Shown: piece after piece, positions 17,601 to 30,932 of the stretch
Layout: the number at the start of each line of letters is the position of its first letter
How positions within the stretch are numbered: the first letter of the stretch is position 1
DNA from: Verrucomicrobiia bacterium
Lineage (GTDB): Bacteria > Verrucomicrobiota > Verrucomicrobiia > Palsa-1439
Length of the DNA stretch: 64,000 bases
Assembly: GCA_022072455.1 (NCBI GenBank)
Contig: JAJVHY010000009.1
Coordinates: forward strand, 62,001 to 126,000
Reading direction: 5' to 3'
Notes under the pieces: model-generated
Databases searched by the model: none
Seen by the model: only the letters and a program-made list of their open reading frames with translations
Told to the model about the DNA's origin: nothing
Translations under genes and position numbers: made by a program

Positions 17601-18059
17601 ATGAACCGGTCGGGCCACATTGTGGTGTTTGCGCTGGATGAACAGAGAGTGGCGTTACCTCTGTCCGTCGTCGAACGGGTCGTGCGCGCGGTTGAAGTAA
17701 CACCCCTCCCCATTGCGTGGACGATTGTGCTGGGGGCGATCAACTTCCACGGTCAAATTCTTCCCGTCTTCAATCTCCGCCGGCGCTTGCGGCTGCCGGA
17801 CCGCGAGATGGAACTCAGCGATCACATCATCATCGCCAAAACCGCGCGGCGGCTGGTGGCGCTCGTGGTGGATGCGGCGGTCGGGGTGCTGGCGTGTCCG
17901 GAAAAGGAGATTGTCCCGCCTGAAGCGATCGTTCCCGGTATCGCTGACCTCGTTTCGGGAGTGGTAAAGCAGCCCAATGGGATGATTTTCATCCATGATC
18001 TGGACAGGTTTTTGTCGTTGGCGGAGACGCAGCAGTTGGAGGCGGTGTTGGCGGTATGA
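17601..18059 (+). CDS. CheW-like coupling protein 1 (WspB-like)
   Basis: A single CheW domain of 152 residues that should link receptor and kinase in a chemosensory array. Typical segments are IVVFALDEQRVALPLSVVERVV, the loop VLGAINFHGQILPVFNLRRRL and VALVVDAAVGVL. The ATG at 17601 is preceded by GGGAGA; ATGs at 17583 and 17562 are possible but would add non-family residues. Its stop overlaps the next start (ATGA). It is the first gene of an operon running to 26402. Confidence 0.88.
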   Translation: MNRSGHIVVFALDEQRVALPLSVVERVVRAVEVTPLPIAWTIVLGAINFHGQILPVFNLRRRLRLPDREMELSDHIIIAKTARRLVALVVDAAVGVLACPEKEIVPPEAIVPGIADLVSGVVKQPNGMIFIHDLDRFLSLAETQQLEAVLAV

Positions 18060-19387
18060 CCACCACCATCGCCAATCCGTTGCTCGCGCAGTTCAGCGAG
18101 TTCGTGACCGCGCAACTCGGGCTGCATTTTCCGCCGGAGCGCTGGCCGGATTTGCAGCGTGGCATTGGTGCAGTCGCGCATGAATTTGGGTATGACGACT
18201 CTGCAGCGTGCGTGCGCTGGTTGATGTCCGGGCCATTAACGAAGGCACAGGTGGATGTGTTGGCCGGCAACCTGACGGTCGGGGAGACGTATTTTTTTCG
18301 TGAGAAACGGACTTTTGAGGTGCTTGACCAGCAAGTCTTGCCGGAGTTGATCCGGCAGCGACGGGACGGTGAACGCCGGTTGCGGTTGTGGAGTGCGGGC
18401 TGTTGTACGGGTGAGGAAGCGTATTCACTGGCCATTTTGGTCCACCGTTTGTTGCCGGATTGGCGGGACTGGAACGTGATGATTCTGGCGACGGATGTGA
18501 ATTCGCGGTTCCTGCACAAGGCAACGCAGGGCGTGTTTGGGGAGTGGTCATTCCGTGACGCGCCGGCGTGGTTGAAGGAGGAGGCTTTTGAGTGCGTGGA
18601 GGGCAAACGGTATGCGATCCTGCCGGAGATCCGGCGGATGGTGCAGTTTGAACATTTGAACTTGGCCGAGGACGTGTATCCGTCGTTGTTGACCGACACG
18701 AACGCGATGGACGTGATCTTTTGCCGGAACGTGCTGATGTACTTCGCGCCGGCGCAGGCCCAGCGCGTTGTCACGCAGCTCCAGCACTGTCTCGTTGACG
18801 GTGGGTGGCTGGCGCTGAGCGCGACCGAGACAGCCGTGGCGATTTCCCAACAGCTCACGGTGGCGAACTTTGATGGGGCAATCCTCTATCAGAAGGGCGA
18901 ACGTCCGCCGGTGCCGGTCGCCACGCCGGTTGTCTGGGAGATGCCGGTCAAGGACAAGCGGCGGGTGGAACCACCGGCGCCGGATGCGCCAGCGATGATC
19001 CAACTGACGCGTGAGTTGGCGAATCAAGGCCGGTTGGCGGAGGCCCGGGCGTTGGCGGACAAGTTGGTGGTCGCGGAGAAGCTGAATCCGGTCGCCCAGT
19101 ATCTGCGGGCGATGATCGCGCTGGAACAAGGTGCTTTGCCGGAGGCAGCAAGGGCGTTGCAGCGGGCGGTGTACCTCGACCACAACTTCGTCATCGCCCA
19201 TTTTGCGCTGGGTAATCTGGCGCGCAGTGCCGGGCGGCGCAAGGAAGCGGAGAAACATTTCACGAATGTGCTGCACTTGCTTGACCGGTATGGTCAGGAT
19301 GACCTCTTGCCGGAGTCGGAGGGGATGACGGCGGGACGGTTGGCGGAAATCGTGAACTCGCTGCGTGACGAGGCGCCGGTCTCATGA
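18056..19387 (+). CDS. CheR methyltransferase with TPR domain (WspC-like)
   Basis: SAM-dependent methyltransferase of 443 residues that would methylate glutamates on the operon's receptor. The CheR core shows NLTVGETYFFRE, LWSAGCCTGEEAYSLAI (SAM-binding motif), MILATDVNSRFL and MDVIFCRNVLMYF. The C-terminal part (about residues 305-430) has TPR-like helices (ANQGRLAEARALADKLVV; PEAARALQRAVYLDHNFVIAHFALGN). This CheR-TPR fusion is characteristic of Wsp-type systems. Start and stop both overlap neighbours as ATGA. Confidence 0.92.
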   Translation: MTTTIANPLLAQFSEFVTAQLGLHFPPERWPDLQRGIGAVAHEFGYDDSAACVRWLMSGPLTKAQVDVLAGNLTVGETYFFREKRTFEVLDQQVLPELIRQRRDGERRLRLWSAGCCTGEEAYSLAILVHRLLPDWRDWNVMILATDVNSRFLHKATQGVFGEWSFRDAPAWLKEEAFECVEGKRYAILPEIRRMVQFEHLNLAEDVYPSLLTDTNAMDVIFCRNVLMYFAPAQAQRVVTQLQHCLVDGGWLALSATETAVAISQQLTVANFDGAILYQKGERPPVPVATPVVWEMPVKDKRRVEPPAPDAPAMIQLTRELANQGRLAEARALADKLVVAEKLNPVAQYLRAMIALEQGALPEAARALQRAVYLDHNFVIAHFALGNLARSAGRRKEAEKHFTNVLHLLDRYGQDDLLPESEGMTAGRLAEIVNSLRDEAPVS

Positions 19388-19905
19388 CCGAAGACCAGCA
19401 ACGCATTCTGAAGGCGCGCGCGCAGGCGCTGGCGCAGGAGCCGGTCGCCCAGGCGACCGAGGCAATGATCGAGGTGGTCGAGTTTTCGCTGGCGACGGAG
19501 CGGTACGCGATCGAGATCAGCTTCGTGCGCGAAGTGTTTCCGTTCAAGGAGCTGACGCCGGTGCCGTGCACACCGCCGTTCTATACCGGCATCGTGAACG
19601 TTCGCGGCCGGCTGATCCCGGTGGTGGACTTGAAGAAGTTCTTCGATTTGCCGGCCAACGGTCTGCAAGACTTGCACAAGGTCATCATCCTCCACTCGGC
19701 AGAAATGGACTTGGGCATATTGGCGGATGACGTGGGCGGGGTGCGGAGCGTGTCGGTCAGTCAGTTGCAGGCGGCATTGCCGACGTTGAGCGGGATCGGG
19801 CAAGAGTACCTGCGCGGGGTGACCGGCGACCGGCTGGTGGTGTTGGATGCCGAGCGGATACTTGGCGATCCGAAAATCGTCGTGCACGAGGAAATCGAGA
19901 AATAA
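19384..19905 (+). CDS. CheW-like coupling protein 2 (WspD-like)
   Basis: The second CheW domain protein of the operon, 173 residues, with about 30 extra N-terminal residues. Conserved parts are MIEVVEFSLATERYAIEISFV, TGIVNVRGRLIPVVDLKKFF and DLGILADDVGGVRSV. Two different CheW proteins flanking CheR is the arrangement of wspB-wspC-wspD. It is coupled to cheR by ATGA and followed 23 bp later by the receptor gene. Confidence 0.92.
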   Translation: MTEDQQRILKARAQALAQEPVAQATEAMIEVVEFSLATERYAIEISFVREVFPFKELTPVPCTPPFYTGIVNVRGRLIPVVDLKKFFDLPANGLQDLHKVIILHSAEMDLGILADDVGGVRSVSVSQLQAALPTLSGIGQEYLRGVTGDRLVVLDAERILGDPKIVVHEEIEK

Positions 19906-19928
19906 CGACAAGCAATCAGAGAAAAACC

Positions 19929-21656
19929 ATGAAACAAAGTATAAGCATGAAAATTGGGGGCGTGCTGGCGTTGGCGCTGGTCGCGTTGGTGATTGTGGGA
20001 ACGCAGTCCTACCGGGCCACCCGCCGGCTGATTACCGATGCCGGCTGGGTCACCCATACCCAACAGGTGCGCGAGGAAATCGCGAGCCTGCTGGCCGGGT
20101 TGCACGAGGCGGAAACGCTCCAGCGCGGATATTTGCTGACCGGCAAGTCGGACTACTTGGAGAGCTACAAGGCTGCGGCGAAAACGATAAATCAACATCT
20201 GCTTTCCCTGCGTCAACTGACCGCTGACAACCTCAACCAACAACGGCGGCTCGACAATTTGGAGCCGCTGCTCAAGGACCGGCTGGACCGGCTGGCGGAG
20301 GGAGAGAATGCCCGCACGGAGAAGGGCTTGGAAGCGGCGGCCCAGTACGCTGAAAAGGGTTTTGGCCGCAACCTGATGAACGAGATCCGCGCCATCACCG
20401 GCGAAATGAACAAGGACGAAAGCGCGCTCTTGGAAAAACGGACACGTGAATCAGAAGCCAGTTCCAACGCCGCTCTTAACACGATCCGATACGGCATGCC
20501 GCTCGCCATCGTCGTGGTCTGCATCATCGGTTTTGTGCTGACGCGCAACATCATCCGCCCGCTCAAAGCCGCCACGACGATCGCCGAGCGCATGGCTAGC
20601 GGCGATGTGTCGGTGGAGATCGAAGGAGAAGATCGCAGGGACGAAGCGGGCCAGTTGCTGCAGGCGTTCAAACGGATGACCGGATTCCAGCGCGAGATGG
20701 CCGGGATGGCGGGAAAAATCGCCGCCGGCGATTTGCACGTTCAGGTCAAACCGCAGTCGGCGCAGGATCTACTGGGCAACGCTTTCGCGTCGATGGTAAC
20801 GAACTTGCGAAGCCTGACGAGCGAAATCAGCGACGCGGTCAACGTGCTCGGCTCGGCTTCGAGCGAGATCGTGGCCTCCACCACGCAACTGGCCGCCAGC
20901 GCCACCGAGACGGCGACGGCAGTTACCGAGACCACCACTACCGTCGAAGAGGTAAAACAAACGGCGCAGGTGTCGAGTCAGAAGGCGAAGTCGGTTTCGG
21001 ACAGCGCGCAGAAGTCGGCGCAAATCTCGCAGGCCGGCCGCAAGTCCACGGACGATACGGTCGAGAGCATGAAGCGGATTCACCAGCAAATGAGCTCGAT
21101 AGCCGACAGCATGGTTCGCCTCAGCGAGCAGACCCAGGCCATCGGCCAGATCATCGCCGCCGTGGACGACCTCGCCGCGCAATCAAACTTGCTCGCCGTA
21201 AATGCCGCCATCGAGGCGGCGAAAGCCGGTGAGCAGGGCAAGGGTTTCACGGTCGTCGCGCAGGAGGTCAAGAGCCTCGCCGAGCAATCGAAGCAAGCGA
21301 CGGCGCAGGTGCGAACGATTCTCAACGACATCCAGAAAGCCACCAGCGCCGCCGTGATGGCGACCGAACAGGGCACGAAAGCCGTCGAGGCCGGGGTGAA
21401 ACAATCCGCGCAGGCCGGTGAGTCAATCTTGGCGTTGACCGGCAGCGTAACGGAATCGGCGCAATCGGCGACGCAGATTGCCGCGTCGAGCCAGCAACAG
21501 TTGATCGGCGTGGATCAGGTCGCCTCGGCGATGGAAAGCATCAAGCAGGCGACCGCACAGAACGTCGCCAGCGCGAAACAAATGGAAACCTCCGCCCGCA
21601 ACCTGAACGATGTGGGCCGGAAACTGAAACAGTTGATCGAGCGTTACAAGGTGTAG
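19929..21656 (+). CDS. Methyl-accepting chemotaxis protein with CHASE3-like sensor
   Basis: Transmembrane receptor of 575 residues. A first helix (GGVLALALVALVIVG, about residues 10-28) is followed by an extracytoplasmic domain with CHASE3 hallmarks (VREEIASLLAGLHEAETLQRGYLLTG). The second helix (MPLAIVVVCIIGFVLT, about 185-203) leads into a HAMP domain. The signalling domain has the conserved hairpin tip DDLAAQSNLLAVNAAIEAA followed by GEQGKGFTVVAQEVKSLAEQS. Candidate methylation glutamates and glutamines are frequent. It is the only receptor in the operon; its ligand is unknown. Confidence 0.94.
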   Translation: MKQSISMKIGGVLALALVALVIVGTQSYRATRRLITDAGWVTHTQQVREEIASLLAGLHEAETLQRGYLLTGKSDYLESYKAAAKTINQHLLSLRQLTADNLNQQRRLDNLEPLLKDRLDRLAEGENARTEKGLEAAAQYAEKGFGRNLMNEIRAITGEMNKDESALLEKRTRESEASSNAALNTIRYGMPLAIVVVCIIGFVLTRNIIRPLKAATTIAERMASGDVSVEIEGEDRRDEAGQLLQAFKRMTGFQREMAGMAGKIAAGDLHVQVKPQSAQDLLGNAFASMVTNLRSLTSEISDAVNVLGSASSEIVASTTQLAASATETATAVTETTTTVEEVKQTAQVSSQKAKSVSDSAQKSAQISQAGRKSTDDTVESMKRIHQQMSSIADSMVRLSEQTQAIGQIIAAVDDLAAQSNLLAVNAAIEAAKAGEQGKGFTVVAQEVKSLAEQSKQATAQVRTILNDIQKATSAAVMATEQGTKAVEAGVKQSAQAGESILALTGSVTESAQSATQIAASSQQQLIGVDQVASAMESIKQATAQNVASAKQMETSARNLNDVGRKLKQLIERYKV

Positions 21657-21666
21657 GACTGCCGGC

Positions 21667-23772
21667 ATGAACGGACGTGACGACGAATTCCTGAAGTCGC
21701 TATTGGCCGCCTTCCGGGGCGAGGCCGCGGAGCATTGGCAGGCGATCTCCGCGGGTTTGCTGGAGTTGGAGCGGTCACCGGCACCGGAAGTCGTCGAGCG
21801 CGTCTATCGCGAGGCGCACAGTTTGAAAGGTGCGGCGCGCGCCGTCAGCCAGACCGAGATCGAAACGGTGTGTCAGGCCTTGGAGTCTGCCTTTGCCGGC
21901 TGGAAACGGCAAGAGTGGCAACCCGTGCCGGCCAGCTTCGACACGTTGCATCGCGCGACCGACTTGATCCAACAACTTGTCGAAGCGCCGGGCAGCATCG
22001 ACCCGGGACGCGTGACGCAAATGAAGTCGGATATTGAGACGCTGTGTTTGCTTGCACCGCGAGCACCGGCCCCCGAACACGTGGAGCCGGTGATGCCGGC
22101 AACGCACGGGGGGGAGACGATCCGGGTGGCGACGCGAAAACTGGACGGCCTGATGCTGCAGGCGGAGGAGATGTTGGCGGTCAAACTCGCGGTCAATCAA
22201 CGGGCCGGTGATTTGCGGGAGTTGCGGACGCAGTTTAACGAACAACTCCGTGCTGAGGCGCCGGACCCGCACCAGTTGCGGGTGTTGGAAGCGAAACTGC
22301 AAACGTTATCGCGGGTGGCCGAGCATGACAACCACACCATTGGCCGGATGGTGGACGATTTGCTGGAGGGCTCGAAACAACTCTTGATGCTGCCGTGCGC
22401 GACATTCCTGAACGTGCTCCCAAAACTCGTGCGCGATCTCTGCCGGGATCAGGCGAAGGAAGCGGAGCTGGTCGTGCATGGCGGCGAAGTCGAGATCGAC
22501 AAGCGGATTCTGGAAGAGATGAAAGATCCGCTCATTCATCTCGTCCGCAACTGCGTTGATCACGGCGTCGAGAAACCGGCCGAACGCGCCCGGCTCGGTA
22601 AACCGGCCCGCGCGACGATCACCGTCTCGGTCACGCAGGTGGATGGCAACAAGGTGGAACTCGCTGTGAGCGATGACGGCGCGGGCGTGGCGGTCGAACA
22701 CGTCAAAGCGGCCGCCGTCAAACACGGACTGGTGTCCGCCGCAGATGCCCGGCAACTGGATGAGCCGGCGGCGTTGGCGCTGATGTTTCTCTCCGGCGTC
22801 TCGACGACGCCGATCATCACTAAGATTTCCGGACGCGGGCTGGGGTTGGCGATTGTGCGTGAGAAAGCCGAGAACCTCGGTGGCCGGGTGGCGGTGCAGA
22901 CGCAAGCCGGCAAGGGGACAACATTTCGGATTCTGCTGCCGCTGACGCTCGCGACATTCCGTGGGACGTTGGTGCAGGCGGCTGGACAGACATTTGTGAT
23001 CCCGACCACCAACGTTGAACGTGTCGGTCGGGTGCGTGTGGCCGAGATCAAGACTGTTGAGAACAACGAGACGATTGCGATGGATGGCAAGACGGTCGCG
23101 CTGGTCCGGCTGGCGCCAGTGTTGGAGTTGCCGGCCAATTCGGCGCTGACGGACGAGCCGGTCTGGCTGACGTTTGTGGTCGTGACCGCCGGCGAGAAGC
23201 GCATCGCGTTTGGCGTGGAGGCGGTGCTGCGGGCGCAGGAGGTGTTGGTCAAGTCGCTGCGGAAACCACTGGTGCGCGTGCGCAACATTGCCGGTGCGAC
23301 GGTGTTGGGGTCCGGGGCCGTGGTGCTGATTCTGAATGTCGCGGACTTGCTGCAGTCGGCGACAAAGGTCCGGCTGGTGGTGAAGGGCGCGCCGGCGCGG
23401 GCGGTGGAGCGGAAGGTCGTGTTGGTGGTGGAGGATTCGATCACATCGCGGATGTTGTTGAAGAATATTCTCGAATCGGCGGGTTACCGGGTGCGGACGG
23501 CGGTGGATGGGTTGGATGCGTTGAGCCAGTTGAAGACCGAGCCGGTCGACGGTGTCGTGTCGGATGTGCAGATGCCGCGGCTGGATGGGTTCAACCTGAC
23601 GGAGAAGATCCGGGCGGATCGGAAATTGGCGGAGTTGCCGGTGGTGCTGGTGACGGCGCTCGGGACCCAGGAAGACCGGGAGCGCGGTGTGGAGGTCGGC
23701 GCGAACGCGTACATCGTGAAGAGCAGTTTCGATCAGAGCAACCTGCTGGAAGCATTGCGGCGCTTGGTGTGA
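21667..23772 (+). CDS. Hybrid CheA histidine kinase with receiver domain (WspE-like)
   Basis: Array kinase of 701 residues. The N-terminal HPt domain carries the phosphorylatable His51 in YREAHSLKGAARAV. A dimerisation/ATPase region follows, with HLVRNCVDHGVEKP (N box), DDGAGV, GVSTTPIITKISGRGLGL (F/G boxes) and GKGTTFRILLPLTLA. A CheW-like regulatory domain (about 415-550) and a C-terminal receiver (about 575-701; VVEDSITSRM, SDVQMPRLDG) complete it. No P2-like domain is obvious. The fused receiver is typical of alternative-function (Wsp/Frz-type) arrays and may act as phosphate sink or relay. Confidence 0.94.
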   Translation: MNGRDDEFLKSLLAAFRGEAAEHWQAISAGLLELERSPAPEVVERVYREAHSLKGAARAVSQTEIETVCQALESAFAGWKRQEWQPVPASFDTLHRATDLIQQLVEAPGSIDPGRVTQMKSDIETLCLLAPRAPAPEHVEPVMPATHGGETIRVATRKLDGLMLQAEEMLAVKLAVNQRAGDLRELRTQFNEQLRAEAPDPHQLRVLEAKLQTLSRVAEHDNHTIGRMVDDLLEGSKQLLMLPCATFLNVLPKLVRDLCRDQAKEAELVVHGGEVEIDKRILEEMKDPLIHLVRNCVDHGVEKPAERARLGKPARATITVSVTQVDGNKVELAVSDDGAGVAVEHVKAAAVKHGLVSAADARQLDEPAALALMFLSGVSTTPIITKISGRGLGLAIVREKAENLGGRVAVQTQAGKGTTFRILLPLTLATFRGTLVQAAGQTFVIPTTNVERVGRVRVAEIKTVENNETIAMDGKTVALVRLAPVLELPANSALTDEPVWLTFVVVTAGEKRIAFGVEAVLRAQEVLVKSLRKPLVRVRNIAGATVLGSGAVVLILNVADLLQSATKVRLVVKGAPARAVERKVVLVVEDSITSRMLLKNILESAGYRVRTAVDGLDALSQLKTEPVDGVVSDVQMPRLDGFNLTEKIRADRKLAELPVVLVTALGTQEDRERGVEVGANAYIVKSSFDQSNLLEALRRLV

Positions 23773-23773
23773 G

Positions 23774-24817
23774 ATGAACAAGGACAAGATCAACGTGCTG
23801 GTGGTGGAGGATTCGCCGGTGGTGCAGATGTTGATGAAACATCTGCTCGACAGCGATCCGCAATTGCACGTGATGGGCACGGCCAATAACGGGCAGGAGG
23901 CAGTGGATTTCGTTGCCGGGCAGAAGCCCGACGTGATCCTGATGGACGTGCACATGCCGAAAATGGACGGCTACGAAGCGACGCGGCGGATCATGGAGAC
24001 GCAGCCAGTGCCGATCGTTATTTCCAGCGCGACGATGACCAATCAGGAAGTCGGGGCCACGTTCCATGCGCTGGAAGCCGGCGCGGTGGCGTTTATCGAG
24101 AAGCCGGTCGGGCTGGGCGGGGCAAACTTTGACCAGATGGTGCAGAAGCTTTTGCAGACCGTGAAGTTGATGGCCGAGGTCAAGGTGGTGAAGCGGTGGG
24201 GCCGCCAGCCGCGGGTTGAACCATTCCGGCCGGTGGGCAAACCCAGCGCCGCAATCAGAGTGATCGCCATCGGTGCTTCGACGGGCGGGCCGCCGGTTAT
24301 TCAGTCAATTTTGGCTGGGGTGCCCAAGGACCTACCGGTGCCGGTGTTGATTGTGCAGCATATTGCCGCCGGTTTCCTCCAGGGGATGGTTGATTGGCTC
24401 AAGCAGACAACTGGCTTCCCGGTCCATATGGCCGCACACGGAAAGGAAGCCTTGCCGGGGTGCGCTTATCTTGCGCCCGATGGTTGGCAGATGGGCCTTG
24501 GTTCCAATGGCCGGATTCTGCTGAGTAACGCCCCGCCGGAAAACGGACTGCGCCCGGCGGTTTCGTACCTGCTGCGGTCGGTTGCCCAGACTTGCGGACC
24601 GAACGCTGTGGGGGTCTTGCTGACCGGGATGGGGACCGACGGTGCGGAAGAACTCAAACTGCTGAAGGATCAAGGGGCAATCACCATTGCGCAGGATGCG
24701 GAAACAGCCGTGGTTCACGGCATGCCGGGGGCGGCGATCCGGCTTGGAGCGGCGACGTACATACTGCCAGCCAACCGGATCGCAGCGGCGCTGGCGACAC
24801 TGGTCAGTCGAAAATGA
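23774..24817 (+). CDS. CheB methylesterase response regulator (WspF-like)
   Basis: Demethylates the receptor when phosphorylated. The receiver domain (1-125) has acidic residues in VVEDSP and the phosphoacceptor Asp58 in LMDVHMPKMDG. The esterase domain (about 160-347) has a full catalytic triad: Ser169 in IGASTGGPP, His196 in VQHIAAGF and Asp289 in TGMGTDGAEE. Length (347 residues) is normal. It starts 1 base after cheA and its stop overlaps the next start (ATGA). Confidence 0.95.
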   Translation: MNKDKINVLVVEDSPVVQMLMKHLLDSDPQLHVMGTANNGQEAVDFVAGQKPDVILMDVHMPKMDGYEATRRIMETQPVPIVISSATMTNQEVGATFHALEAGAVAFIEKPVGLGGANFDQMVQKLLQTVKLMAEVKVVKRWGRQPRVEPFRPVGKPSAAIRVIAIGASTGGPPVIQSILAGVPKDLPVPVLIVQHIAAGFLQGMVDWLKQTTGFPVHMAAHGKEALPGCAYLAPDGWQMGLGSNGRILLSNAPPENGLRPAVSYLLRSVAQTCGPNAVGVLLTGMGTDGAEELKLLKDQGAITIAQDAETAVVHGMPGAAIRLGAATYILPANRIAAALATLVSRK

Positions 24818-26046
24818 AAAACACCCAACCCATCCACCTCCTCCTCGTCGACGACAATCCCGTGGACGCCGCGTTGGCGCAGCGCATGTTGCAGTCGCTG
24901 GAAAACGAATTGGCAATCGCCGCGCAGTGGGTTGACAGCGCGGAAAAGGCGTTGCTTGAAGTGCGCAATCGTGCCTTCGACGTGATGTTGCTGGATTACA
25001 ATTTACCGGGCATCAGCGGTTTGGAGGTTTTGGCGCAGATCCATCAACTCCCGCCCAACCAGCAGCCGGCCGTGATCATGTTGACCGCCAGCGGCAGCGA
25101 GAAGATTGCCGTGGAAGCGATGAAGAATGGCGCGCGCGATTACCTGCGCAAGGAGGATCTCGCGGTGGCCCCATTGCTGCGCGCCATCATCAGCGCGCTG
25201 TCACAGAAGCGGATGCAGGACCAACTGGCCGCGTACGTGACGCAGACGCAGGCCGACTTGAAGATGGCGCATGAGCTCCAGTGCGCGCTTTTGCCGCGCC
25301 ACTTCCCGCTCTTTCCACATACGGCTGACGATGCCGAAACCGCCGTGCGCTTCCATGCCCGGTACGTCTCGACGACAGATTTGGGGGGCGATTTTTACAG
25401 TGTCGTTCGGCTGTCGGACACGGTGGCGGGTGTATTCATCTGCGACGTCATGGGCCACGGAGTGCGGGCCGCGCTCGTGACGGCGATGATTCGCGCGCTG
25501 GTGGAAGAGTTGCAACCGCTGGCCCGAGAGCCCGGCCGGTTTTTGGCGGAGGTCAACACCGGTTTGCTGGCGATTTTGCAGCACACCGACGAACCGTTGT
25601 TTGCCACGGCCTTGTATCTCATCGCCGACATCGGGCGTGGTGAGATTCGCTACGCCAACGCGGGCCATCCCTCACCACTGCACGTCCACGCCGACCGGGG
25701 AGTGGTTGATGAGTTTCAATTTGCCATGGGCAATACCGGTCCAGCGTTGGGGCTGTTTCGGGTAACTGAGTACCCAACTGATACTGTTCCGATTGCCGGC
25801 GGCGATCTGTTGGTGTTGTTCACTGATGGCTTGTTCGAGGTGCAAGGCCCCGCCGACGATGAATACGGCCCCCACCGCTTGCGGGAGGCGGTCCAGCGCC
25901 GGGTGAGTGAGCCGCCCGCTGCGATGCTGGACGGGTTGATGACCGAGGTCCGGCAATTCTCCTCAACGGGCCAGTTTGTCGATGATGTGTGCCTGTTGGC
26001 GATAGAAGTGAGGCGGTTGGCCGCCGGCCTCAAGGAGGCGCGATGA
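24814..26046 (+). CDS. Receiver-PP2C phosphatase response regulator (RsbU/SpoIIE-like)
   Basis: A 410-residue protein, start ATG at 24814 overlapping the cheB stop. The N-terminal receiver has LLLVDDNPVD, phosphoacceptor Asp61 in LLDYNLPG and a conserved Lys in YLRKEDL. After a linker helix the C-terminal half is a PP2C/SpoIIE serine phosphatase with the metal-binding motifs DLGGDFYSV, FICDVMGHGVRAALVTAM and LLVLFTDGLFEV. Such proteins dephosphorylate STAS-domain anti-sigma antagonists. In Wsp operons this position is held by WspR, a receiver-GGDEF protein; here the output domain is a phosphatase. Phosphorylation by the CheA homologue is inferred from position. Confidence 0.93.
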   Translation: MKNTQPIHLLLVDDNPVDAALAQRMLQSLENELAIAAQWVDSAEKALLEVRNRAFDVMLLDYNLPGISGLEVLAQIHQLPPNQQPAVIMLTASGSEKIAVEAMKNGARDYLRKEDLAVAPLLRAIISALSQKRMQDQLAAYVTQTQADLKMAHELQCALLPRHFPLFPHTADDAETAVRFHARYVSTTDLGGDFYSVVRLSDTVAGVFICDVMGHGVRAALVTAMIRALVEELQPLAREPGRFLAEVNTGLLAILQHTDEPLFATALYLIADIGRGEIRYANAGHPSPLHVHADRGVVDEFQFAMGNTGPALGLFRVTEYPTDTVPIAGGDLLVLFTDGLFEVQGPADDEYGPHRLREAVQRRVSEPPAAMLDGLMTEVRQFSSTGQFVDDVCLLAIEVRRLAAGLKEAR

Positions 26047-26402
26047 GTGATTTTACCGGATTAGACCTGGCCACGATTGAGAAACTCAAGCAATTGGGGG
26101 GAGGCCCGTTTGCCGGCCAGATGATCGATCTTTTCTTTCAGTATCTGCCCGGCAAGTTGGCGGAAGCCAAGGCCGGGCTTGGAGGGGGAGATTTTCACGC
26201 CATCCAACAAGCCGTGCACCCGATCAAATCCAGCGCCAACAACGTGGGAGCTGTGGCCGTCAGGGAGTTGGCGCGGCAGATCGAACAACTGGCCTTGGAC
26301 AAGAACGGGGAGACAATTCCCGCCCTGCTGCATGATCTGGAAGAGGCGTATGCGCGGGTGGCGGTGCAACTCAAAGAGCAGCGCGCCGGGCTGGAGGCAT
26401 GA
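26043..26402 (+). CDS. HPt phosphotransfer domain protein
   Basis: A 119-residue helical protein, start ATG at 26043 overlapping the previous stop as ATGA. It has the HPt signature HPIKSSANNVGA, with His59 as the likely phosphorylated residue, and downstream helices (VRELARQIEQLAL). It lacks any kinase domain, so it must be phosphorylated by a receiver, for example the one fused to CheA. It can then pass phosphate to another receiver, such as the stand-alone protein at 27031-27468 or the PP2C receiver. It closes the plus-strand operon, facing the STAS gene with an 8-base gap. Confidence 0.88.
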   Translation: MSDFTGLDLATIEKLKQLGGGPFAGQMIDLFFQYLPGKLAEAKAGLGGGDFHAIQQAVHPIKSSANNVGAVAVRELARQIEQLALDKNGETIPALLHDLEEAYARVAVQLKEQRAGLEA

Positions 26403-26410
26403 GCCGCCGC

Positions 26411-26968
26411 TCAGGTTTTTGCTGGTGGCTCGGGCAGGCTTTCTTCGCGCAATAATTGGATCACCGTGGCGAACTTCGCTGCGTTCCGGTTGTCGACGCG
26501 AACCAGGTCGGTATGGGCGGTCAGCATGATCTGGCGGGTCTCCTGCTGATTCAGCGGCTTGCGCTGTTCCGCAGTGTTTGAATCCGGTAACTGCTGGAAG
26601 ACGAGGTTGACGGGCAGGTTCAAACAGGAATGGTCAGTCCCGCTCGCCGCCACGTTGAATATGCGATGCAAGCCCAGTCCTCGGAGTAGGTCCTGATGTT
26701 GCTGGTTGGCGTTGATGACCCAGTTCGTTCCTGACCCGCCTTGCTGGTGGAGCCGCATTCCAAGGCCGGCCAACACACCCAAAAACGTGCTGTCCATTCC
26801 CACACACTGCGCTAGATCCACCACGAGTTCGTTGCTGCCGGACCGGACTTTGTTGGAAACGTATTGCTTCAACGCTGGGCTGTTCTGAAATGTTCCCCGC
26901 CCTTGAATCCGAATCCACACACTCGTTCCGGTAGAGGCGACATATATTCCCTGCGACAGTTCAGCCAT
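26411..26968 (-). CDS. STAS-domain protein (anti-sigma-factor antagonist-like)
   Basis: 185 residues from the ATG at 26968, with GGGAGGT just upstream. The first 100 residues form a STAS domain: IYVASTGTSVWIRIQGRGTF, NELVVDLAQCVGMDSTFLG. Ser60 of MDSTFLG is at the position phosphorylated in SpoIIAA/RsbV proteins. About 85 further residues follow, with no recognised domain. It is the likely substrate of the PP2C phosphatase encoded by the converging operon. No RsbW-like anti-sigma kinase was found in the window. Confidence 0.85.
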   Translation of the reverse strand: MAELSQGIYVASTGTSVWIRIQGRGTFQNSPALKQYVSNKVRSGSNELVVDLAQCVGMDSTFLGVLAGLGMRLHQQGGSGTNWVINANQQHQDLLRGLGLHRIFNVAASGTDHSCLNLPVNLVFQQLPDSNTAEQRKPLNQQETRQIMLTAHTDLVRVDNRNAAKFATVIQLLREESLPEPPAKT

Positions 26969-27030
26969 TCGACCTCCCAATTTCACCGGCCATGGCAACG
27001 CCCTGGGGCCGCGTTTGCTTCACTCGTGGC

Positions 27031-27468
27031 TCACGCCGGAGGGGGGACCTCGTCGGCGCTGGCGGAGCGTCCGAACCGGAAACTGAAGAACGGCATCTCC
27101 AACATTTCGTCGAGCAGTTGAATCAGCCGCTTGGCATCCACCGGTTTGGGAACAATGGTCCGGCAGCCGACTTGGCCCTGCAAGGCTTTGGCGACCTGTT
27201 GTGTGACCGTCGCAGTCAAGAGGATGACCGGGGTGTTTTTCAACTGACCTTTGGTTTGGAACTCCGCCAGCAGTTGCCCGCCATCCATCTGCGGCATCAC
27301 CACATCCAGCAGGATCGCCGCGGGCTTGAACTCCAATGCCGCCGCGACCGCCTGCAGCGGGTGATTCTCAACGCGAACCTCATACCGACCGGTCCGCTCC
27401 AAGTTCATCTTGACCAAGTTGGTAAACGGGACTTCATCATCAATCATCAAAATGCGTTTTTTTTCCAT
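27031..27468 (-). CDS. Stand-alone receiver domain response regulator
   Basis: A CheY-like receiver of 145 residues: RILMIDDEVPF at the start, phosphoacceptor Asp55 in LLDVVMPQMDG, a conserved Thr in LLTAT and Lys108 in IVPKPVDAK. There is no output domain; the last 20 residues are Pro/Ala-rich. It follows two kinase genes and an unknown gene on the minus strand, so it is the probable target of those kinases or of the nearby HPt protein. Confidence 0.92.
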   Translation of the reverse strand: MEKKRILMIDDEVPFTNLVKMNLERTGRYEVRVENHPLQAVAAALEFKPAAILLDVVMPQMDGGQLLAEFQTKGQLKNTPVILLTATVTQQVAKALQGQVGCRTIVPKPVDAKRLIQLLDEMLEMPFFSFRFGRSASADEVPPPA

Positions 27469-27483
27469 AGCTGATCTCCGGGT

Positions 27484-27915
27484 TTAGGCTTGGTTGAGGA
27501 AATATTTGATTTGCCGGGCGACTTGGATGAACTGCAAGGGATCCTTCATGACGGCCTGCCACTGCGCGGTCGTCGCCGGCCAGTCGCCGCCGCCTTGGCT
27601 GCACCGGTTGAGCAACTCGGTGGCCCAGCGTTCGACTCCCGTTCGATCCGCCAGTAGCGCGCAGGCAATCAGCAACGACCGCACTGCCCGCAGGGTCGCG
27701 CCGGTGACTTGGTTGGCGACGATGTCCTTGAGCACCGGGGTCGTGTCGAGTTCGACGCAGCGGTGCAACTCCGCGACATCCAGATCCACTCGCGGCCGGT
27801 ATTCGATCACGTCCCGGAATAAGCGGGCGAAATCCGCGCCGTACTTCTGCCGCAGCCCGGCCTCGAAGGCATCGGTCAATACGGTCTGTACGTCTTTGAG
27901 ACAATGGATTTGCAT
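27484..27915 (-). CDS. Unknown protein encoded between histidine kinase and receiver
   Basis: 143 residues, mostly predicted helical, without membrane segments or a recognised motif (MQIHCLKDVQTVLTDAFEAG at the start). Its ATG overlaps the stop of the upstream histidine kinase by one base (TAATG), so the two are translationally coupled. It is followed 15 bp later by the receiver gene. Its location suggests a partner of the kinase or of its receiver, but the sequence gives no direct clue. Confidence 0.8.
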   Translation of the reverse strand: MQIHCLKDVQTVLTDAFEAGLRQKYGADFARLFRDVIEYRPRVDLDVAELHRCVELDTTPVLKDIVANQVTGATLRAVRSLLIACALLADRTGVERWATELLNRCSQGGGDWPATTAQWQAVMKDPLQFIQVARQIKYFLNQA

Positions 27916-29147
27916 TAGTGCACAGCTCCTTTCCCGTTGTGAAATACGATAGTGGCTTGGACGCCGCCCTCGGGACGGTTGGCGACTTCGAGTGTCCCGG
28001 TGTGCTGAAGAATAATCTGTTGTGCGACCGCCAATCCCATACCGGAGCCGACGCCGACCGGCTTCGTGGTGAAGAACGGATCGAACACCTTCGCCAGCGC
28101 CTCCGGCGGAATCCCGGTGCCCGTATCCAAGACCTCGACCACCACATCCGCGTCGCGCAGGCTGGTGCGGACGGTCAACGTCCCGCCTTTGGGCATCGCA
28201 TGGCAGGCGTTCATGAACAGGTTGATGAACACCTGCTCGATGCGGATCCGGTCAATCTGGCGGGGCGGCAGGGCGGGGGCAAACTTCCGCACCACTTGAA
28301 TCCCGCGAGCGCTGAACTCGTGATGCACCAACCGCAACGCCCGATCCACGACCGAATTCAGATTTTCAGTGGTCGGTTGCAGTTCGCGGGGCGCCGCGTA
28401 GTCGAGGAGTTCACGCACAATGGCGTCGGCCCGTTCCACAGCATCGCGCATGTCGTGCAGGACGGTATCGGTTTCTGGCTGCCCAGTCTGCAGGCAATCC
28501 TCAAAGTACCCGACGCCCATCAATAAAATGGCGAGCGGATTCTTGATCTCGTGCGCGATGCCGGCCGCCAATTGGCCGATGGATTCAAGTTTCTCGGCCT
28601 GGATCAATTTCGCCTGCGTGTTTTTGAGATTCTCGTATGTCGCCAGCAATTCGATCTGACTGCGCGCCAGGTCGGCATTAAACTGGTGCAGTTGTTCGGC
28701 GGCCTGCTTGCGCGCGCTGATGTCGTGGTTGACGCCGGCCACGCCGATGAATTCGCCGGCCCTGTCGCGCAGGGCCACTTTCGTTGTCAACAACCAGCGC
28801 GCCCGCCCTTGGGCATCGGTGAGGCAAGCTTCCCGGTTGATCAGCGGCTGACCGGACTGCGCGAGGGCGCGTTCCTCGCTGGCAAATTGCTCCGCCAAAC
28901 CCGCCGGGAAAAAATCAAAATCCGTCCGCCCGAGGATCGCGTCGGGTGTGGTGTTGAAAAAATGCGCCGTCGCGGCGTTGACCAACACAAACCGGCCCTC
29001 AGAATCTTTCACATAGATTTGGTCCGGCAGCGAATCGAGAACCAGATTCGCCCAGTCGCGAGTGTTGAATGCGGGGCGAGCCAGTGTCGCCGTACTCACC
29101 GCGCCTGATTCCTCCAACCATCCCGCCGCTGCATGATAGGTTGCCAT
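27915..29147 (-). CDS. PAS-domain sensor histidine kinase
   Basis: 410 residues, apparently soluble. A PAS domain occupies about residues 30-150 (DQIYVKDSEGRFVLVNAATAHFF, then WLLTTKVALRDRAGEFIGVAGV). A coiled-coil linker leads to the HisKA domain with His199 in GIAHEIKNPL. The HATPase domain has the N box FINLFMNACHAMPKGG, G1 VLDTGTGIP, F box FDPFFTTKPVG and G2 GSGMGLA. It belongs to the NtrB-like group. It is the second kinase of the minus-strand signalling operon, 66 bp after the GAF kinase. Confidence 0.93.
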   Translation of the reverse strand: MATYHAAAGWLEESGAVSTATLARPAFNTRDWANLVLDSLPDQIYVKDSEGRFVLVNAATAHFFNTTPDAILGRTDFDFFPAGLAEQFASEERALAQSGQPLINREACLTDAQGRARWLLTTKVALRDRAGEFIGVAGVNHDISARKQAAEQLHQFNADLARSQIELLATYENLKNTQAKLIQAEKLESIGQLAAGIAHEIKNPLAILLMGVGYFEDCLQTGQPETDTVLHDMRDAVERADAIVRELLDYAAPRELQPTTENLNSVVDRALRLVHHEFSARGIQVVRKFAPALPPRQIDRIRIEQVFINLFMNACHAMPKGGTLTVRTSLRDADVVVEVLDTGTGIPPEALAKVFDPFFTTKPVGVGSGMGLAVAQQIILQHTGTLEVANRPEGGVQATIVFHNGKGAVH

Positions 29148-29213
29148 ATCGCGCAGTGGAAAAATAACGCCGGCAGCTCTTCGCCGTCAACCGCAGTTAC
29201 CCCCTGAATCGGT

Positions 29214-30932
29214 CTAGGGGGCTCCATCCGCCGGCAAGAGAATATGAAACGCTGTGCCCTGCCGGGGAGCGCTCTCGACTTCGATCCGACCTTGGTGGGC
29301 GTCCACGATGATCTTGTAGACGATGGCCAAGCCGAGGCCGGTCCCGTGGGCTTTCGTCGTCAGAAACGGCTCGAACAACCGCGCCTGTTGTTCCGGTGTC
29401 ATTCCCACGCCGGTGTCGCGAAATGTCACCACCACCGTGCCCGGCGCGCGCACGCCGGTGGTGATGGACAATTGCCCACCCGCCGGCATCGCCTCAGCGG
29501 CGTTGAGGATGAGATTCAGACAAGCCTGTTCGAGTTGGCCCCGGTCAGCCTTGAGCGCCGGCAGATGGCCGGCCAAGTCGGTGACCAATTCGACCCGCTG
29601 TTGCTGTAATTTCCGGCGCGTCAGCATGAGTACATCGTTGAGCAAGGCGTTAAGATCAACTGGCTGGAAACTCGGTTCGTTCGAGCGCGCGTAGCTGAGC
29701 AGGCGTTCCACGATTTTGTTTAGATGCTCCATTTTCTCCGCGACGATTTCCGCATCGCGCGCACGCGGATCAGTGGCCGGGAACTTCAACTCCAGCGAAT
29801 GAAACAACATTTGCATCACCGTCAACGGATTGCGGATCTCATGCGCGACCTCGGCGGCGAGCAGGCCGAGGGTGCCGAGTCGTTCGGCTTGCCGGAGTTG
29901 TTCTTCGGCTTGCACCACTTTTTCGTGCGCCTGCGCGTTGGTGATCGCGACGGCGGCCAGGCTGGCCAGCGTGGAGAGGATTTTCATGTCCTGCGTCGAA
30001 TACCGGTACGGCGTGGCGCTGTAGACGCTGAGGGCCCCAATGACTTGCTCGCCAAATTCGAGCGGCACCGAGAGCAGTGACACCAGTCCGTCTTGCCGGG
30101 CCAGTTCGATGTGCTGATACGCATCGTGGTGCTGGACGTTGTAGACCTGAATCGGTTTCCGGCGGCGGACGACGCTGCCGATGATGCTCTCACTGACCGG
30201 TAACGGCGGCTTGCTCAGGTAATCCGCACTCGCGCCGTGGCAGGCGCGGAGTTCGAGCTGGTCCCGGTCCGCATTCAGCAACATCAGCGAACAGACTTTC
30301 GTCTCCATCAACCGGCACGCGGCGGCGGTCACGCGTTTGAGCACGTCCTCGAGATTGAGGGACGAGTTGATGGATTGCGCGACGTGGAAGAGGGCTTCGA
30401 GTTTGCGGGCGTTGTGGGCGACGGCTTCGTAGAGCCAGGAATTGTGGATGACTTGCGCCGCCTGATTCGCGAGCGCGACGAGCAAATCTTCCTCAGCCTG
30501 GCTGAACGCATTCTGGCGCGTCGAGTCCACGTTGAGCACGCCGATGAGCTGGCCTTCGAGCAGCAACGGCACCGCCAGCTCGCTGCGAATGTCGTTGCGA
30601 ACCGAGATGTACCGCGGGTCGGTGCTGACGTCGGCCAGTCGCAGCGGTTGGCCGGTTTTGGCGACCCAGCCGGTCACGCCGCGCCCAATGGCAAGTTTGA
30701 GTTGCCGGGCTTCGTCACTCAGGCCGATGGCGACTTCGATTTCGAGGAGTTGCGTGTGCGGGTCAATGAGCACGAGCGAACCGCTCGTCGCCTTCATTAG
30801 TTCGACGGCTTCGCGGAGAACGAGGTCGAGGACTGTGGCCGGTTCGAGAGAGGAATTGATGACGCGGCTGACCCGGGTCAGCACTTCGTAGTGCCGGAGT
30901 TTTTCGTTGGCCGGTGGGGTGGAGCGCGCCAT
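29214..30932 (-). CDS. Histidine kinase with two GAF domains
   Basis: 572 residues from the ATG at 30932; the longer frame to 31058 has no family resemblance. GAF1 (about 25-170) and GAF2 (about 185-335) are followed by HisKA with His364 in AAEVAHEIRNPLTV. The ATPase domain has LNLILNAAEAMPAGG, FRDTGVGM, LFEPFLTTKAHG and TGLGLA. No membrane helix is visible, so it should sense a cytoplasmic ligand or redox cue. It is the first gene of the minus-strand operon (two kinases, unknown, receiver, STAS) converging on the chemosensory operon. Confidence 0.93.
   Translation of the reverse strand: MARSTPPANEKLRHYEVLTRVSRVINSSLEPATVLDLVLREAVELMKATSGSLVLIDPHTQLLEIEVAIGLSDEARQLKLAIGRGVTGWVAKTGQPLRLADVSTDPRYISVRNDIRSELAVPLLLEGQLIGVLNVDSTRQNAFSQAEEDLLVALANQAAQVIHNSWLYEAVAHNARKLEALFHVAQSINSSLNLEDVLKRVTAAACRLMETKVCSLMLLNADRDQLELRACHGASADYLSKPPLPVSESIIGSVVRRRKPIQVYNVQHHDAYQHIELARQDGLVSLLSVPLEFGEQVIGALSVYSATPYRYSTQDMKILSTLASLAAVAITNAQAHEKVVQAEEQLRQAERLGTLGLLAAEVAHEIRNPLTVMQMLFHSLELKFPATDPRARDAEIVAEKMEHLNKIVERLLSYARSNEPSFQPVDLNALLNDVLMLTRRKLQQQRVELVTDLAGHLPALKADRGQLEQACLNLILNAAEAMPAGGQLSITTGVRAPGTVVVTFRDTGVGMTPEQQARLFEPFLTTKAHGTGLGLAIVYKIIVDAHQGRIEVESAPRQGTAFHILLPADGAP

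Follow-up and report, generated by a model that had tools for sequence, protein, structure and literature searches.

A 64,000-nucleotide stretch of verrucomicrobial DNA (hereafter, the window; G000:C18:62001-126000, from a 4.82-Mb draft genome of 36 contigs that is 95.6% complete) carries a chemosensory operon on the plus strand that runs head-on into a set of two-component signaling genes on the minus strand. The last of these minus-strand genes encodes a STAS protein, and the question treated here is which of the two operons that protein serves. The original prediction for this locus, made from the sequence letters by a model, had described a minus-strand run of GAF kinase, PAS kinase, unknown protein, receiver, and STAS protein ending 8 bases from an HPt gene, and had proposed that both operons form one merged signaling network. 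The genes and their order proved to be as described, with the HPt and STAS genes convergent and 8 bp apart (Table 1).

Table 1. Features of the two convergent operons (positions within the window)
Feature	Coordinates	Strand	Basis
Chemosensory core: CheW, CheR-TPR, CheW, CHASE3-HAMP chemoreceptor, CheA-REC, CheB	17601..24817	+	Pfam, operon spacing
Receiver-PP2C (SpoIIE) response regulator, RssB-like	24814..26046	+	Pfam, NCBIfam, PDB, sequence reading
Single-domain HPt protein	26043..26402	+	PF01627, E = 1.1e-13
Short palindrome, terminator-like on the plus strand	26400..26413	.	Sequence scan
STAS protein, RssC-like, Ser60 in MDSTFLG, conserved C-terminal motif; extra STAS-A paralog	26411..26968	-	PF01740, tree, alignment
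Single-domain receiver	27031..27468	-	PF00072
143-aa helical protein without known family	27484..27915	-	No Pfam or NCBIfam match
PAS-HisKA-HATPase histidine kinase	27915..29147	-	Pfam; homologs in G001, G002, G004
GAF-GAF-HisKA-HATPase histidine kinase	29214..30932	-	Pfam

The plus-strand genes are tightly packed, with spacings of -4 to 23 bp and a 4-bp overlap between the receiver-PP2C and HPt genes. On the minus strand, the gaps from the STAS gene to the GAF kinase gene are 62, 15, -1, and 66 bp; because the flanking gaps are 62 and 66 bp, the STAS and GAF kinase genes are the looser ends of the run. The STAS gene has its own Shine-Dalgarno-like sequence (GGGAGG) ahead of the ATG at 26968. 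The 14-bp palindrome takes in the stop codons of the HPt and STAS genes alike and is possibly a terminator common to the two; terminator-like sites in the region numbered 8 against 5.7 expected, so that the promoter and terminator scan was near chance and the evidence from the palindrome is weak. The receiver Asp, the HPt His, the PP2C catalytic motifs, and the STAS serine are all present in the encoded proteins.

To our knowledge, the output is known for few alternative-cellular-function (ACF) chemosensory pathways. Such pathways are marked by a CheR with TPRs and a multidomain response regulator (PMC3447774), and the window's cluster encodes both, the regulator being the receiver-SpoIIE protein (Pfam). 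In a two-unit reading of the locus that we adopt tentatively, the plus-strand genes (unit 1) would be an ACF-type chemosensory operon with the receiver-PP2C phosphatase, followed by HPt, as its output. The original prediction had the chemosensory operon lacking a free receiver for HPt. The operon is not short of receivers: CheA (in a C-terminal REC domain), CheB, and the receiver-PP2C protein carry one each (Pfam). Possible partners for HPt are thus encoded alongside it, and it has no need of the free receiver on the minus strand.

The receiver-PP2C protein is encoded by one of four SpoIIE-type PP2C genes matched in the whole 4.8-Mb genome and is 52% identical to a second receiver-PP2C on contig C6. 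Its domains above cutoff are the receiver and SpoIIE only, with no C-terminal HATPase kinase or anti-sigma domain. The best full-length NCBIfam model was Pseudomonas RssB, at 92 bits, far under the cutoff of 700; the best full-length PDB match was 3eq2/3f7a (E = 1.7e-22), a structure named as RssB (PMC12143880). In a phylogenetic tree, the window protein fell into an unresolved group of 29 rows (support, 91/67), of which 25 come from the window's family and 4 are STAS-A-linked PP2Cs of other families (STAS-A is the family of the window's STAS protein, described below). In relatives, the C6 kind was mostly the last gene of a group of kinase, small receiver, and receiver-PP2C: a kinase and/or small receiver preceded the gene in 9 of the 10 loci read (the exception was G009), and no HPt or STAS-A match occurred in any of the 10. 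Tandem receiver-PP2C genes were also observed in two relatives (L084:6057-8515 and L088:2-2406), which points to expansion of this phosphatase family within the window's family.

The minus-strand kinases and receiver have a conservation history of their own. The 143-aa protein was detected in 4 of the 286 genomes of the class, all within the window's family, and in three relatives, namely G001, G002, and the congeneric G004, it occurs together with the PAS kinase and the receiver. The order there is kinase, receiver, 143-aa protein, the last two being swapped in the window. Beside the module in these relatives (stretches of ∼17.7 kb each in G004 and G002 and 4.3 kb in G001), no STAS gene, HPt gene, or che operon was recognized beyond receiver-only matches. 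Since the PAS kinase, receiver, and 143-aa protein are kept in three relatives without a window-type CheA and with no HPt or STAS recognized alongside, they constitute a separate module. Of the GAF kinase, only the C-terminal 107 residues were recognized in G004 (69% identity), upstream of the PAS kinase. Within the tentative two-unit reading, the GAF kinase, PAS kinase, 143-aa protein, and receiver would be an independent two-component module (unit 2). Neither Pfam nor NCBIfam matched the 143-aa protein itself (among five members, one gave a stray Pfam match at E = 0.04), and its AlphaFold2 model, which is helical and weak (mean predicted local distance difference test score [pLDDT], 67.6), matched no PDB entry at E ≤ 0.001. 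On contig C3, the genome has a second, diverged kinase-receiver-143-aa module (L078:4198-7704), followed by more receivers and kinases.

The STAS protein belongs to neither operon's conserved unit; alignment and tree identify it as an extra, diverged paralog of a family, STAS-A, that was matched (E ≤ 0.001) in 260 of the 286 class genomes, the weakest matches possibly being other STAS proteins. The genome contains five STAS matches, one of them within a SulP-like transporter. The window copy, on contig C18, is 43% identical to the copy on C6 and grouped in the tree with copies from family f1, outside ten orthologs, a position that together with its long branch fits an added, diverging copy. 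Residues D59-S60-T61-F62 and the C-terminal motif are kept in all 23 aligned STAS-A rows; the substrate serine named in the original prediction, Ser60, is correct and invariant. Against the NCBIfam RssC model, the window protein scored 29.5 bits (cutoff, 250), with the match extending into the C-terminal extension, and 21 of 23 STAS-A members matched the same model. We take the RssB/RssC likeness as a resemblance and not as membership: the window pair may at most work like RssB and RssC. A plasmid search found no relative of the window STAS protein.

We read 20 STAS-A loci, picked from the matches listed and spanning many families, and named PP2C-like genes there by their phmmer likeness to the window's receiver-PP2C. 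A PP2C-like gene adjoined or lay near STAS-A in 15 of the 20 (433 to 523 aa, with one shorter call of 312 aa), and a GrpE match lay in the same stretch in 11. The order STAS-A, PP2C-like, grpE, dnaJ recurred (L159, L161, L162, L164, L165, L166, and L168; dnaJ was named by eye), and this arrangement is possibly a heat or stress switch. In the window's own family, the order was STAS-A, STAS-B, RsbW-like, grpE, with STAS-B and the RsbW-like gene standing where the PP2C gene stands elsewhere; all four were recognized in 9 of 10 loci, including that of the window's own genome, G009 having no STAS-B match. No STAS-A match was found in G003 (53% complete).

An RsbW-like anti-sigma kinase was the piece that the original prediction had marked as missing; of the two alternatives it gave, a kinase encoded elsewhere or a STAS protein working without one, the first agrees with the genome search. 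The proposed search for HATPase_c anti-sigma kinases returned 16 PF13581 (RsbW-type HATPase) matches, none of them on C18. The best (E = 1.5e-24) lies on C6 in the STAS-A cluster at C6:43815; the protein, encoded at C6:44824, scored 88.2 bits against PF13581 (cutoff, 27.4) and 77.5 bits against the NCBIfam RsbW name model, under its cutoff of 145. A true absence of RsbW was accordingly rejected, as an RsbW-like protein is encoded on C6 beside the other STAS copy. Three sigma factors with region 3 were found. Two are short and match rpoS (291.3 and 312.6 bits; cutoff, 378.7) with higher RpoD and RpoS scores than SigBFG scores (113.8 and 117.1 bits; cutoff, 234.35); the third, of 554 aa, was read as RpoD by eye.

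Among the genomes searched, the two operons co-occur and adjoin only in the window's genome. A window-type chemosensory CheA was found in 1 of the 11 genomes of the order, the window's own (the CheA of G002 is of a different kind, with 37% identity over half the length), and the window's genome is also the only one of the 11 with two STAS-A copies, a weak coincidence. Class-wide searches scored few candidates per genome, 4 for CheA and 6 for receiver-SpoIIE, and some relatives are far less complete. Among the matches listed, the nearest CheA relatives were in G174, G151, and G120 (55 to 59% identity), none of which had a match to the 143-aa protein; the CheA-linked receiver-PP2C of G151 is 35% identical to the window's and fell outside the 29-row group.

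Similar gene combinations do occur elsewhere in the class. Again among the matches listed, at least nine other genomes (G013, G020, G052, G088, G130, G135, G166, G229, and G278) have CheA and a receiver-SpoIIE gene on one strand and no more than 1.6 kb apart. The receiver and SpoIIE domains were checked with Pfam in two of the nine (and in the separate case of G151); the other seven proteins matched over nearly their whole length at 54 to 97% identity. In 19-kb stretches of the nine genomes, a STAS match was found in six, an RsbW match in six, and one or the other in seven. These genes lay directly upstream in G130 and G088, and in G229 for one RsbW and one STAS gene; the remaining matches were up to ∼4 kb away, those of G278 on the other strand. 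By protein similarity, these nine clusters are parallels to the window and not orthologs of it. Three loci (L151:1101-12716 of G130, L219, and L220) had the order STAS, RsbW, RsbW, STAS directly before a full chemosensory operon ending in receiver-SpoIIE, with one RsbW and one STAS recognized in L220.

The reading that we favor, though with slightly less than even confidence, is that the chemosensory system, possibly by way of HPt, directs the receiver-PP2C protein at this STAS protein, while the kinase module works separately. The RssC-like STAS gene, despite its place at the 3' end of unit 2, would then be tied functionally to the phosphatase of unit 1. Signals from the chemoreceptor array would pass to CheA and from there to the receiver of the PP2C protein, either directly or through CheA's own receiver and HPt; the phosphatase would dephosphorylate Ser60, and the dephosphorylated STAS protein would change partner. 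Its likely partner, and the candidate Ser60 kinase, is the C6 RsbW-like protein encoded beside the paralogous STAS gene. Alternatively, the STAS protein may pair with the receiver-PP2C itself, as RssC does with RssB, and the target would then be one of the two RpoS-like sigma factors. Gene content, motifs, paralogy, and adjacency were observed here, and each phosphotransfer, dephosphorylation, and binding step is put forward on that basis. The claim of the original prediction that the STAS protein is a likely phosphatase substrate gained support from the PP2C-like neighbors in 15 of 20 loci, from the RssB/RssC likeness, and from the 364 bp that separate the STAS gene from one of the four PP2C genes. 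A randomly placed STAS gene would fall that close with a chance of ∼0.0024, or ∼0.012 for any of the five STAS matches, under a simple length model that ignores the clustering of signaling genes.

Several observations weigh against this interpretation, the simplicity of that chance model among them. The STAS gene is on the strand opposite to the phosphatase gene and, being on the same strand as the receiver gene and 62 bp behind it, probably shares a transcript with the kinase genes. Its branch is long (1.35), its exact place in the tree is unsure, and the grouping has moderate support (92/73). No PP2C gene stood beside STAS-A in any of the 10 loci of the window's own family, where the neighbors are STAS-B and RsbW. 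None of the three region-3 sigma factors was of the SigB/F/G type, in a genome 95.6% complete and with extracytoplasmic function (ECF) sigma factors not searched. The arrangement itself is known from a single genome. As for the parallel clusters, their proteins are distant from the window's (33 to 38% for CheA; 23 and 24% for the two receiver-PP2Cs measured), and neither STAS nor RsbW matched in the stretches of G135 and G020. G130, G088, and G229 belong to one genus, the search proteins came from G130, and the comparison included no control stretches.

Other explanations account for parts of these data. The STAS protein could serve the kinase module only, as the output of the GAF and PAS kinases and the receiver, with the nearness of the chemosensory genes incidental. 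Its strand and its probable place on the receiver's transcript, across the 62-bp gap, agree with this, but we regard it as unlikely, given that G001, G002, and G004 retain the module with no STAS gene recognized alongside and that a family so often found near PP2C-like genes here lies 364 bp from one. Equally improbable in our estimate is that two unrelated operons are plain convergent neighbors sharing no signaling, with the extra STAS protein serving the C6 switch or decaying. The long STAS branch and the finding of the operons together in no other genome searched are what such neighbors would leave, whereas a chance of roughly 0.2 to 1.2% for the PP2C/STAS closeness (simple model) and an intact Ser60 and C-terminal motif are not.

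The merged network of the original prediction, in which HPt hands phosphate to the free minus-strand receiver, fared less well, and we consider it very unlikely in its full form. Adjacency and the presence of HPt and receiver motifs accord with it, and the STAS-phosphatase link it implied stands as the favored reading above. The remainder found no support: the receiver travels with the PAS kinase and 143-aa protein in three relatives with no window-type CheA and no HPt or STAS recognized nearby, the chemosensory operon owns receivers, and the operons were not neighbors in related genomes, which is the first of two outcomes that the prediction had named as together refuting it, the second being a lack of interaction between the products. 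Finally, the STAS protein might bind CheA and tune phosphate flow with no partner switch, as the STAS protein CheS does in binding CheA in alphaproteobacterial chemotaxis clusters (PMC12654446), but this is highly improbable given that the STAS-A neighbors in the 20 loci read were PP2C-like genes and grpE, not che operons.

A more far-reaching version of the favored reading is, in our view, rather unlikely. It holds that in this verrucomicrobial lineage an RssB/RssC-like phosphatase-STAS pair, reached via the CheA receiver, HPt, and receiver-PP2C, lets the chemosensory array set how much of an RpoS-like sigma factor is available; that the STAS protein derives from a STAS-PP2C-grpE stress switch found across the class; and that chemosensory operons of the class became connected to partner switches on more than one occasion. 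The RssB-RssC system of Pseudomonas and Azotobacter, in which RpoS degradation requires the two proteins together (PMC12143880, PMC12923157), shares with the window a receiver fused to a full-length, catalytic-looking PP2C and a STAS protein. Two sigma factors of the window's genome match rpoS, both under the cutoff. In contrast, the window genes are convergent with HPt between them and not in one operon, are attached to a chemosensory operon, and score far under the curated cutoffs (92 of 700 and 29.5 of 250 bits). The RsbU-RsbV-RsbW system is similar in its PP2C, in the invariant Ser of its STAS protein, and in that the window's genome also encodes an RsbW-like protein; unlike that system, the window's RsbW-like gene is on another contig, and no SigB/F/G-type sigma factor was found (ECF not searched).

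Closer in gene content is the HptB-HsbR-HsbA set of Pseudomonas aeruginosa, in which phosphate flows from a hybrid kinase to HPt, receiver-PP2C, and STAS (PMC6482189). The window HPt and STAS genes likewise adjoin the receiver-PP2C gene (STAS convergently), whereas HsbR carries a kinase domain and is fed by hybrid kinases rather than by a chemosensory array. A predicted link among receiver-PP2C, STAS, and a chemoreceptor in Campylobacterota (PMC9239204) has a fused kinase and runs in the opposite direction (STAS onto the receptor). Published chemosensory loci already pair a phosphatase-type regulator with a STAS protein. Shewanella che1 carries such a regulator and its STAS partner, CrsR and CrsA (PMC9855816), with CrsR, unlike the window regulator, having an anti-sigma/kinase domain (PMC6482189), a role for which the window's genome has an RsbW-like gene elsewhere. 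Gammaproteobacterial F7 stage 1 clusters include anti-sigma factor antagonists and a serine phosphatase (PMC7184735) in another gene order, with CheY, CheD, and Aer2-type receptors. Literature searches of limited depth found no report of a verrucomicrobial form, whether STAS/partner switching or Wsp-like with SpoIIE. Class chemosensory operons that end in receiver-PP2C, several with STAS or RsbW genes nearby and in this respect much like Shewanella che1, suggest that chemoreceptor control of partner switches may reach beyond Proteobacteria. In the window itself, 364 bp separate the gene for the output enzyme from that for its likely substrate, a pair that lends itself to direct testing.

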